Shown: piece after piece, positions 58,200 through 61,513 of the stretch
Layout of the letters: every line of letters begins with the position of its first letter
Position numbering within the stretch: position 1 is the first letter of the stretch
From: Natrinema salifodinae
Lineage (GTDB): Archaea > Halobacteriota > Halobacteria > Halobacteriales > Natrialbaceae
Assembly (NCBI RefSeq): GCF_900110455.1
Contig: NZ_FOIS01000004.1
Location: forward strand, 248,001 to 312,000
Length of the DNA stretch: 64,000 nt
Direction of reading: 5' to 3'
Position numbers and translations under genes: made by a program
Notes under the pieces: model-generated
The model's input: the letters and a program-made list of their open reading frames with translations, nothing else
Databases searched by the model: none
Told to the model about the DNA's origin: nothing

Positions 58200-59114
58200 T
58201 CAGTACTCGTCGGCTGACTCCTTCCACTCCCCGATTCCCGACGGATCGAGATGGACGTGCGCGTCTCCTACGTCGTCGAGCCTCCGGAGGCGTTCGACGA
58301 GTTCCGACTCGATGTCGTGGGCCTCCCGGAACGGCATGTCGCCGTCGACCTCGACGTGGACCTCGACCTCGAGGACGGTCCCGTCGTAGAAGACCGCCAG
58401 GTCGTGGACGCCTTCCACCGCCGGATGGCTCCGTAAGGCGTCGGTGATCTGCGCGCGCTTCTCGGTGCCCGGCGCGGCGCCGATCAGGTAGTCGACGTTC
58501 TCGTTGGCGATTTCGACGCCCTGGTAGACGACCAGCACGCTCACCAGGCCGCCGGCGAGAGGATCGAGTAGCGGGTAGCCCGCGACCACCCCGAGGACGC
58601 CGACGATGGCAGCCATCGAGGTGTAGATGTCGTTCAAGCAGTCCTTCGCGAGCGCCGCGAGCGCGGTCGACTGCAACTGGTCGTTGATCCCCACGGTGTA
58701 GCGGTAGACCGCGTACATATCGACGATTGCGAACCCGAGCGCCGCGAGCAACAGGGGACTGGCCGTGGGAAATGCACGGTCGACCAGGCTCTGGCCGGAG
58801 TCGTAGAGCAGATACAACCCGAGGAGCGCGATCATGGCCCCGACGAACAGCGCCGTCAGGGGTTCGATCCGGTCGTGGCCGTGGGGATGGGTGGCGTCGG
58901 GTTCGTCGAACGCGCTCCGGCCCCAGACGAGGACGACGACGCTGGCGACGAGATCGGCCAACGAGTGGGCCGCGTCCGCGAGCAGGGCGATGCTCCCGAA
59001 GAGGTAGCCCGCGCCCCCCTCGACGATGATCTTGGCGATGTTGCCGACGACGTTCACCCACGAGGCTCGTGTGAACGCGCTCCGGCCGCCGTCAGCGGCG
59101 ACGTCGTCGGACAT
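58200..59114 (-). CDS. Cation diffusion facilitator (CDF) metal exporter
   Basis: 304 residues from the ATG at 59114 (MSDDVAADGGRSAFTRASWV). Six membrane helices; the metal site has LLADAAHSLADL (Asp47, His50, Asp54) in helix 2 and ALAKDCLNDIYTSMAA in helix 5. HPHGHDRIEP is the His-rich loop start and the C-terminal domain (about 210-304) contains VEVHVEVDGDMPFREAHDIE and VHLDPSG. It exports Zn2+, Fe2+, Mn2+ or similar in exchange for H+. Divergent from the crcB genes. Metal preference not determined. Confidence 0.9.
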   Translation of the reverse strand: MSDDVAADGGRSAFTRASWVNVVGNIAKIIVEGGAGYLFGSIALLADAAHSLADLVASVVVLVWGRSAFDEPDATHPHGHDRIEPLTALFVGAMIALLGLYLLYDSGQSLVDRAFPTASPLLLAALGFAIVDMYAVYRYTVGINDQLQSTALAALAKDCLNDIYTSMAAIVGVLGVVAGYPLLDPLAGGLVSVLVVYQGVEIANENVDYLIGAAPGTEKRAQITDALRSHPAVEGVHDLAVFYDGTVLEVEVHVEVDGDMPFREAHDIESELVERLRRLDDVGDAHVHLDPSGIGEWKESADEY

Positions 59115-59247
59115 AGGTCGGTTTAGAGGCAGTCTAAACTTGGGTCTTTTCCTTCCGCGGCTCGGCGCCGGCGAGCGAATCGGACCAGCTTTCGCAACGC
59201 TCATTGCGACCGCGCGAGAGGACGGATACGACCGCAATTACGCGATC

Positions 59248-59361
59248 GGGCGATGGGGCCCGCCTGCTCCAACCGCCGGACGAGACCGCCGGCCGGGCGA
59301 GGACGACGGCAGTATCGTCGTCTCGCCGTCCGCGCCGAGCGGAAGTCGGCTGACGGTCCCT
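59248..59361 (+). ncRNA. Candidate fluoride (crcB-motif) riboswitch
   Basis: It lies directly upstream of tandem crcB genes (ATG at 59382). GGGCGATGGGGCCCGCC (59248-59264) is close to the 5' end of the known fluoride riboswitch: hairpin GGCG (59249-59252) with CGCC (59261-59264), loop with GGGGCC (59255-59260). Conserved AACC is at 59271-59274. GCCGG (59275-59279) can pair with TCGGC (59346-59350), followed by TGACGGTCCC (consensus TGATG). GGTCCC (59355-59360) pairs with the loop GGGGCC to close the pseudoknot with one G-U. An extra 12-bp hairpin (59296-59327, one bulged G) lies in the stem loop. Inferred by eye; the TGATG/TGACG difference and long stem insert leave doubt. Confidence 0.6.
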
Positions 59362-59381
59362 GTGACGACCCAGTCACGACC

Positions 59382-59789
59382 ATGACCGCCGATCACCCGC
59401 TCGTTCGACTCGAAACGCTCGCCTTGATCGCCGTCGGCGGCTTCGCCGGCTCGAACCTCCGCCTGTTCGCGATGGACCTGCTCCCGGACGTTCCCTCGAT
59501 CGTCCTCGTCAACGCCGTCGGGAGCGCCGTCCTCGGACTGCTGGTCTACGAGGCCGAGTACACCGGCCTGGTCGGCTCGCGGAGCCGCCTGGTCTTTACC
59601 ACCGGATTCCTCTCGTCGCTGACGACCTACAGCACGTTCGCGCTCCAGACCGCGTTCGCGTCGTCCCCGCTCGCGATGCTTGGAATCGTTGCCGCCAATT
59701 ACGGGCTCGGGTTCACCGGGGTCCTCGCGGGACGCGGGCTCGCACGCCGGCTCAGTCACGTGCCAGCCGCTGGCGGTGAGACGGCGTGA
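59382..59789 (+). CDS. crcB1: Fluoride ion channel subunit CrcB/Fluc, first of two
   Basis: 135 residues from the ATG at 59382 (MTADHPLVRLETLALIAVGG). Four membrane helices. Family motifs: GGFAGSNLRLF (Arg), IVLVNAVGSAVLG (Asn) and GFLSSLTTYSTFALQ (the Thr/Ser/Phe stretch near the Na+ site and F- path). The GFAG-Arg-LF is slightly altered from the common GGxxGAxxRY. Its stop overlaps the start of the second copy (GTGA). Exports toxic F-; two-gene forms assemble as antiparallel heterodimers. Confidence 0.9.
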   Translation: MTADHPLVRLETLALIAVGGFAGSNLRLFAMDLLPDVPSIVLVNAVGSAVLGLLVYEAEYTGLVGSRSRLVFTTGFLSSLTTYSTFALQTAFASSPLAMLGIVAANYGLGFTGVLAGRGLARRLSHVPAAGGETA

Positions 59790-60205
59790 GCTGGAGTGCG
59801 AGCGCGGGCGAGACCGCGTGGCACCTCGCGGCACTCGTCACGTTCGACCCCGACCCGGCCCACGTCGTCGGCACGGGCGGCGCGATCGGGGCGCTCCTCC
59901 GGTACTGGGTCTCCCAACGAGTGGCCGGCGACGGGTTTCCGCTGTCGACGTTCCTCGTCAACGTCGTCGGCAGTTTCGTCTTCGGCCTGGCCGTCTTCGC
60001 GGGCGCCGGCGAGTCGACGCTTCGCCTGGTCGGCACCGGGATCTGCGGCTCGTTTACGACCTTCTCCTCGTTCTCGGTCGAGACGGTGCGACGCTACGAA
60101 CGCGGCGACCGCGCCCTCGCGGTCGCCAACGCCGCAGCCAACCTCCTCGCCTCGCTCGCGGCGATCGGCCTGGCGTGGAGCCTCGTCGCCGTCGGGTCCC
60201 TCTGA
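59786..60205 (+). CDS. crcB2: Fluoride ion channel subunit CrcB/Fluc, second of two
   Basis: 139 residues, GTG start at 59786 overlapping the TGA of the first copy. Four helices with GTGGAIGALLRYWVSQR, TFLVNVVGSFVFG and GICGSFTTFSSFSVE, all close to the canonical CrcB signature. Tandem, overlapping crcB genes typically encode a heterodimeric Fluc channel. No other promoter is seen between the copies. Confidence 0.92.
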   Translation: MSWSASAGETAWHLAALVTFDPDPAHVVGTGGAIGALLRYWVSQRVAGDGFPLSTFLVNVVGSFVFGLAVFAGAGESTLRLVGTGICGSFTTFSSFSVETVRRYERGDRALAVANAAANLLASLAAIGLAWSLVAVGSL

Positions 60206-60356: not shown

Positions 60357-60932
60357 ATGGAGGCTCGCCAAGAGGCGTGGCGCATCTACCGCGAGTCATT
60401 GCCGATCCTCGCGGTCAGCCTCGCTGGTGGGATCTTCTCGGGGACGGTGCTCAGTTCGGACGGGATGACGGCGGGATTCGAACGGTTCCCCGGGCTGTTG
60501 TTGTTGCTTCCGGCGTTTCTCGCGACCCGAGGGAACGTCTACGGCGCGCTCGGAGCGCGCATCTCAAGCGGTCTCCATCAGGGGATGATCGACCCGTCGT
60601 TCTCGTGGGATCGGCGCCTGGTCAACGCGGTCGCGGCGTCGTTCATCAACGGGATCGGAATCTCGGTGTTTATCGCCGTCCTCTCGTGGGCCATTTTAGA
60701 GGTCCTCGGCCGCGAATCGGCCAGGCTGATCGAACTCCTCGGGATCATGCTGGTCTCCGGGGTCCTGACGTCCGCCGCACTGATCTTCGGACTGCTGGCG
60801 CTGGTCTTCGCGAGCTACGAGTACGGGCTCGATCCGGACAACCTGATCGGCCCAATCGTGACCACGCTCGGAGACATCTTCGGCGTCGTCTTCCTGTTCG
60901 TCGCCGTCACCGTCGTGGGGGTGGCGTTCTGA
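60357..60932 (+). CDS. MgtE-type magnesium transporter, first membrane half (second copy)
   Basis: 191 residues, the paralogue of the gene at 50351: SLPILAVSLAGGIFSGTVLS, LLLLPAFLATRGNVYGALGA, SFINGIGISVFIAVLSWAIL and GLDPDNLIGPIVTTLGDIFG. About 55-60% similar over the pore stretches by eye. The stop TGA overlaps the ATG of the second half. Mg2+ or another divalent cation uptake or export; direction is not shown. Confidence 0.87.
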   Translation: MEARQEAWRIYRESLPILAVSLAGGIFSGTVLSSDGMTAGFERFPGLLLLLPAFLATRGNVYGALGARISSGLHQGMIDPSFSWDRRLVNAVAASFINGIGISVFIAVLSWAILEVLGRESARLIELLGIMLVSGVLTSAALIFGLLALVFASYEYGLDPDNLIGPIVTTLGDIFGVVFLFVAVTVVGVAF

Positions 60933-61513
60933 TGGGGGGCACCGACCCCGACGAGTCGCTCGACGCCTGGTCGATCCGCAGCATCGTCGGGACGATGTTT
61001 CCGATCCTGATCGCCCTCTCGGTCCTCGAGATGGGGTCGGGGTACGTCCTCGAAGAACTCGAGGAAACCTACCTCGGGAACCCGACGCTGCTGGTGCTCG
61101 TCCCCGTGATGATCGGCATGGGCGGTAACCTCGGCGCGATCCTCGCCTCGCGACTCTCGACGCGGCTCCACCTCGGTCTCCTCGAGTTCGATCCCCGGGA
61201 CACGGTGCTGTGGACGAACATCGTCGCGATCCTCGGCCTGGCGGCGACGATCTTCTCGGCACTGGGCGTCATCGCCTGGCTCGTCAGTCGACTCATCGCT
61301 CATCCGATGCCGCTGGCGGACCTGTTTCTCATCTCGGTCATCAGCGGCATGCTGCTCGCGGGCCTGGCGATCGTGCTCAGCCTCGTCGCGACCTACGTCT
61401 CCTACGCGTACGGGCTGGACCCGGACGACACGACGATTCCGGTCGTTACAAACGTCTGTGACATCCTCGGCGTGATCGTCCTCTCGGGAGTCGCGATCGT
61501 CGTCCTGAACTGA
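60932..61513 (+). CDS. MgtE-type magnesium transporter, second membrane half (second copy)
   Basis: 193 residues from the ATG at 60932 (MGGTDPDESLDAWSIRSIVG). Pore motifs match the first copy: NPTLLVLVPVMIGMGGNLGA and DDTTIPVVTNVCDILGVIVL. Unlike the 50920 gene it has a shorter acidic leader. The downstream neighbour is a PhoU/TrkA-C protein on the opposite strand, the same partner family as for the other pair. Confidence 0.87.
   Translation: MGGTDPDESLDAWSIRSIVGTMFPILIALSVLEMGSGYVLEELEETYLGNPTLLVLVPVMIGMGGNLGAILASRLSTRLHLGLLEFDPRDTVLWTNIVAILGLAATIFSALGVIAWLVSRLIAHPMPLADLFLISVISGMLLAGLAIVLSLVATYVSYAYGLDPDDTTIPVVTNVCDILGVIVLSGVAIVVLN

Follow-up and report, generated by a model that had tools for sequence, protein, structure and literature searches.

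The genome of Natrinema salifodinae raises the question of whether the leader of two tandem crcB genes carries a fluoride riboswitch and, if so, how such a switch might control an exporter in a haloarchaeon. We use "the window" for the whole stretch of DNA analysed, 64,000 nucleotides of contig NZ_FOIS01000004.1. Read directly, the 135 nt ahead of crcB1 contain, in order, P1, the loop strand, CCAACC, P3 and GGTCCC. The original prediction, made from the letters of the window, had placed the elements of a fluoride aptamer before crcB1, and every one of them was found there, including a GGGGCC/GGTCCC pseudoknot of six pairs, one of them G-U, and an added 12-bp hairpin within the closing stem (Table 1). 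The conserved GAUG and AAC are present in the aptamer, and CUGACG stands for the CUGAUG of RF01734. The predicted crcB context also held: both genes match Pfam CRCB, and the arrangement is shared by nearly all relatives. By its sequence, the segment 59247-59360 is almost certainly the aptamer of a fluoride (crcB, RF01734) riboswitch. Taken as a whole, the locus is very probably explained by a fluoride riboswitch that would turn on translation of crcB1 and crcB2.

Table 1. Predicted and observed features of the crcB leader in the window
Feature	Position	Strand	Basis or remark
BRE/TATA-like promoter element CGCAACGCTCATT	59193..59205	+	predicted, for crcB transcript
Predicted transcript start, GATAC	59225-59229 (near 59228)	+	promoter comparison
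17-nt extra 5' leader, predicted start to aptamer	59230..59246	+	absent from most relatives; upstream sequences compared
P1 hairpin	59247..59266	+	stem CGGGCG 59247-59252 / CGCCTG 59261-59266; Rfam alignment and pairs kept in relatives
Pseudoknot 5' strand GGGGCC, in P1 loop	59255..59260	+	partner 59355-59360
Joining segment CCAACC	59269..59274	+	near-invariant across alignments
P3 closing stem, 5' strand GCCGG	59275..59279	+	partner 59346-59350; compensatory changes at pairs 2-5
Variable P3 arm, 66 nt	59280..59345	+	contains 12-bp hairpin 59296-59327, one bulge
P3 closing stem, 3' strand TCGGC	59346..59350	+	partner 59275-59279
TGAC	59351..59354	+	C at 59354, Rfam consensus U
Pseudoknot 3' strand GGTCCC	59355..59360	+	covariation with P1-loop strand
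21-nt linker, proposed expression platform	59361..59381	+	GTGAC 59362-59366 / GTCAC 59373-59377; GACC 59378-59381 with GGTC 59355-59358
crcB1, fluoride channel subunit, 135 aa	59382..59789	+	Pfam CRCB 51.8 bits
crcB2, second fluoride channel subunit, 139 aa, GTG start	59786..60205	+	4-nt overlap with crcB1; Pfam CRCB 84.4 bits

At the gathering threshold the whole window has no match in Rfam, the score of 34 bits required for RF01734 not being reached. Relaxing the threshold brings up RF01734 as the top Rfam match in the window (20.3 bits; E = 0.0046 with 4227 families searched), spanning model positions 10-45 only and ending inside the long P3 insert. The covariance check that had been proposed was therefore sub-threshold with the Rfam model and strong with a clade model from which all sequences of the host's own genus were left out: the latter gives a full-length match of 56.7 bits (E = 5.4e-13 for a search of the window), unique in the genome, where the next best site scores 17.3 bits. 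The low Rfam score is attributable to the 66-nt P3 arm, since a compact member with nearly the same core and a short arm scores 38.6 bits, above the Rfam cut-off. We assign the element to RF01734 despite its score because structure and covariation fit: P1, P3 and the P1-loop pseudoknot stand in family order and covary, with P1 extended here by up to two pairs. Minimum-energy folding of the whole leader gives a z of about -2, which alone is not decisive; the aptamer is absent from the free fold, as expected for a pseudoknotted switch. Other weak Rfam matches on the region (dauA, gntR-DTE and others) have E values above 3 and are attributed to chance, and the weaker RF01734 matches elsewhere in the genome (13.9 bits or less) are unsupported by the clade model.

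The aligned core of the Natrialbaceae RF01734 matches is almost invariant, reading GGGCGATGGGGCCCGCC, CAAC(C/T)GCCG and then CGGCTGACGGTCCC. In 46 sequences, 97.9% of the pair cells of the named structure are kept and 6 of the 17 pairs have changed on both sides, a number reached in 0 of 500 shuffles, which is not a probability because the leaders are related. A wider set of 89 distinct leaders represents several haloarchaeal families. Every one of them forms the full set of six pseudoknot pairs, as GGGGCC/GGUCCC, GGAGUC/GACUCC or GGCGUC/GACGCC, and double changes occur at pairs 3 and 5 (in 23 and 26 leaders, respectively). The comparison with relatives suggested at the outset thus yields strong covariation.

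The original prediction regarded the long inserted helix as unusual. This view was not borne out: long arms are ordinary in Natrialbaceae, and the length of the P3 segment varies between 10 and 183 nt in the set of 89 leaders. The 28 segments that reach 50 nt are more stable than their shuffles (mean z -2.0), and the arm of the window with its closing stem folds at -46.0 kcal/mol (z -2.8). In-register covariation in P3 is clear for the first five pairs and for pair 9 alone. Because no register is conserved past pair 5 except at pair 9, the arm seems to be a tolerated helical insert that changes quickly rather than a special device. Two Natrialba genomes (L131 and L133) have P3 segments of 167-183 nt made of TCGGCTGG-like tandem repeats.

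To describe the distribution of the element, 125 Natrialbaceae genomes were searched. RF01734 exceeds the cut-off in 8 genomes and gives dozens of weaker matches, nearly all of which lie immediately before tandem crcB genes, and the clade model finds the aptamer in 91 genomes, covering 25 of the 29 genera; more than nine tenths of the Natrialbaceae family of switches therefore lie below the Rfam cut-off. CRCB genes occur in 120 of the same genomes, and 61 of 80 named crcB loci carry the aptamer. By comparison with named relatives, the window falls within Natrialbaceae, close to Natrinema/Haloterrigena. In a sample of Halobacteriales the clade model detects it in 97 of 342 genomes (40 of 89 genera), sporadically outside Natrialbaceae. 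Across the phylum RF01734 is above cut-off in 48 of 295 genomes, so the class is already known in archaea, where it was documented earlier (PMC2864571). Eroded, deleted or interrupted copies of the switch lie before crcB in the host's own genus (L056, L057, L126, L127, L128 and L174), and their sequences suggest recurrent loss at this gene. One Natrialbaceae genome has a 53.9-bit fluoride aptamer with no crcB adjoining (L009:1501-1565). In Halogeometricum pallidum (L225:989-1472) two aptamers of 49.2 and 54.6 bits lie about 360 nt apart, the former before a short ORF for what is apparently a small membrane protein and the latter before crcB1, with GAGTC directly preceding the ATG.

A switch can act only if its 5' hairpin is transcribed, and the original prediction depended on this point. 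Across 58 relatives sharing the leader type, upstream A/T content peaks at -42, -37/-36, -32, -30/-29 and -14/-13 from the aptamer, with AA conserved at about -37/-36, TCATT at about -32 to -28 and AA at -14/-13, a pattern that matches haloarchaeal BRE, TATA and -10 elements (PMC4983044). The promoter-like element of the window is about 14 nt further upstream of the aptamer than in the relatives, and we therefore place the start, and a 17-nt extra leader, as listed in Table 1. A start near 59228, predicted from the conserved BRE/TATA-like element, would be upstream of P1 and keep the hairpin within the transcript.

Several other features adjoin the locus. A perfect inverted repeat, GTTTAGAggcagTCTAAAC, at 59121-59139 lies just upstream of a divergent cation-efflux gene (58200-59114, minus strand); from its sequence it is likely to be the operator of a metal regulator. 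TTTAGAnnnnnTCTAA is found at 39 of 48 Natrialbaceae crcB loci. After crcB2, two adjacent half-size genes with MgtE domains occupy 60357-61513, and an mgtE relative lies inside the flank examined at 21 of the 48 loci. Fluoride is sensed jointly with magnesium, which makes the mgtE neighbourhood noteworthy.

The way in which the aptamer might control crcB is suggested by the linker. GTGAC and GTCAC, just before the ATG, had been proposed as an expression-platform hairpin. Both pairing strands are present, but the extent proposed was too short: the window linker has no CAGCC, the motif of many relatives described below, and pairs in another register, GGTC 59355-59358 with GACC 59378-59381, which runs into GTGAC/GTCAC. 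Because this GGTC belongs to both structures, the start-proximal hairpin competes with the pseudoknot. The 3' segment folds at -12.0 kcal/mol; all fold energies were computed for 37 C under standard conditions rather than for molar KCl. When a longer segment is folded freely, the same strands cross the AUG to GACC 59384-59387 and GCCGAT 59388-59393, and the start is covered in both alternative folds of the window. Accessibility from -8 to +3 rises from 0.30 in the free RNA to 0.57 with the aptamer held (P1 and P3 fixed, and the pseudoknot strands barred from other pairs), and the same treatment raises start-region accessibility in 68 of 87 leaders.

Pairing of this kind recurs among the relatives. 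The start codon lies 11-21 nt past the pseudoknot strand in 87 of the 89 leaders, and pairing between the linker and the aptamer 3' strand can extend as far as the base preceding the AUG. The longest helix between linker and aptamer averages 5.83 pairs in the GGUCCC-type leaders of Natrialbaceae, against 4.28 when shuffled (0/300), and 5.37 against 4.23 in the other families (0/300), neither count being a probability since the leaders are related. This pairing is specific to the last 16 nt of the aptamer, where the mean Watson-Crick helix is 5.2, compared with about 3.1-3.9 in non-overlapping segments. CAGC(C/T) stands immediately 5' of the ATG in 44 of 59 GGUCCC-type leaders and in just 1 of 345 long ORFs taken as background from 400 kb of the host's own genome; of the 19 crcB loci in which the model detects no aptamer, two have it, both with eroded aptamer remnants. 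In the best examples GGCUGACGGUC pairs with GACC-GUCAGCC, and the helix reaches the base that adjoins the AUG. When aptamer strands were exchanged, Natrialbaceae-type linkers paired better with their own strand than with a foreign one in 48 cases versus 6, and those of the other families in 10 versus 20, where the foreign strand is the more GC-rich. The exchange thus suggests co-evolution of linker and aptamer in Natrialbaceae-type leaders only.

One core position separates the Natrialbaceae from the rest. Just before the pseudoknot strand, C replaces the consensus U in all 59 GGUCCC-type leaders, whereas the 30 others have U, as does the CUGAUG of the Rfam consensus. The C at 59354 occupies what we take to be U41 of the T. 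petrophila aptamer, a residue whose phosphate helps to hold magnesium ions. Among the leaders whose linker finishes with NTCAGC(C/T), 21 are C-type, of which 15 have G and 3 have A as N, and 3 are U-type, all with A. Small and drawn from related leaders, these counts hint that the masking strand follows the U-to-C change.

These observations point to a translational ON switch for the crcB1-crcB2 exporter genes, which on the modelled folds we regard as quite probable because there is no terminator, the pairing adjoins the start and accessibility rises once the aptamer is fixed. At the level of sequence and predicted fold, the leader offers two mutually exclusive pairings, one of which covers the start region. 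Without fluoride, the linker would be paired, as far as the last base ahead of the AUG, with the P3 3' strand and the pseudoknot strand; in the window, GGUC-GACC stacked on GUGAC/GUCAC would hide the start. When fluoride is present, P3 and the pseudoknot would form, the masking pairing would be lost and the freed start would allow both overlapping crcB genes to be translated.

The same aptamer could instead act by transcription attenuation, with premature termination of the leader when fluoride is lacking, as in many bacteria. In bacteria, predicted terminators overlap many crcB RNAs (PMC2864571), and some leaders outside Natrialbaceae have a short T run right after the pseudoknot strand. However, no hairpin-plus-T-run terminator is present in 59150-59450, no intrinsic terminator overlaps the aptamer 3' strand, the linker of the window has no T run, and linkers in general, just 11-21 nt long, are paired up to the start codon. 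We consider attenuation unlikely. Still more improbable is an intact aptamer that binds fluoride poorly, or with altered specificity, through the C at U41. The fixed difference between the GGUCCC-type leaders and both the other leaders and the Rfam consensus would fit such an effect, but the clade that has fixed the change has otherwise retained an invariant core and the crcB context, and the base at U41 may vary freely because it is the phosphate that serves the magnesium site.

Marginally less probable again is a switch that has decayed in this strain, as it has in several congeners. Its linker and 5' leader are unlike those of most relatives, and eroded or interrupted copies are known from the genus; yet the window retains both stems, the pseudoknot and all invariant core positions, and the nearly invariant positions as well, except residue 21 (A to C). 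That the leader holds no regulatory RNA and resembles one by chance in GC-rich sequence is scarcely credible: the Rfam score does fall under the gathering cut-off, but covariation and the conserved crcB context refute this reading, as do the E value of the own-genus-free model and the uniqueness of the site in the genome. A fluoride-responsive translational switch remains the preferred account.

Earlier work had established the aptamer class, its occurrence in archaea and its association with crcB. In the open-licence literature we found no report of a haloarchaeal fluoride riboswitch and no mention of the sub-cut-off haloarchaeal group, the fixed U-to-C change or the start-adjacent masking hairpin. 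Tentatively, and with slightly less than even confidence, we suggest that haloarchaea possess a widespread natural translational switch that operates without Shine-Dalgarno control, the aptamer 3' strand masking the bases before the AUG, and that in Natrialbaceae the U-to-C change has co-evolved with a G in the masking strand (GGCUGAC with GUCAGCC). In Haloferax volcanii most mRNAs lack a leader, and the start-site study of that species describes control by structured leaders as atypical of haloarchaea (PMC4983044). If the proposal is true, this would be a rare natural riboswitch among organisms with mostly leaderless messages. The locus is a test case for switching initiation without Shine-Dalgarno sequences, and the presence of the switch family in 25 of 29 Natrialbaceae genera opens natural riboswitch control in halophiles to direct testing.

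The element resembles RF01734 in P1, P3, the pseudoknot, the CAAC joining segment, the CUGA-N-G motif and its position in the crcB leader. It differs in its long variable P3 arm, a P1 with up to two additional pairs, C in place of the consensus U ahead of the pseudoknot strand, a score below the cut-off and the lack of a terminator. The fluoride switch of Thermococcus kodakarensis (Speed et al. 2018, cited in PMC8241225) is likewise archaeal, of the fluoride class and presumed to act on translation, and PMC8241225 names the Thermococcus switch as the sole natural archaeal riboswitch shown experimentally up to 2021. That switch belongs to a hyperthermophile and lies upstream of TK0513, not crcB (PMC4247193), whereas the element described here precedes tandem crcB genes in haloarchaea. 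Synthetic theophylline riboswitches in Haloferax volcanii (PMC8241225) resemble the mechanism proposed here in that the ligand frees the start region; they are Shine-Dalgarno-based, whereas the crcB leader is natural, has no evident Shine-Dalgarno sequence and would be masked by a pairing that ends at the base just before the AUG.
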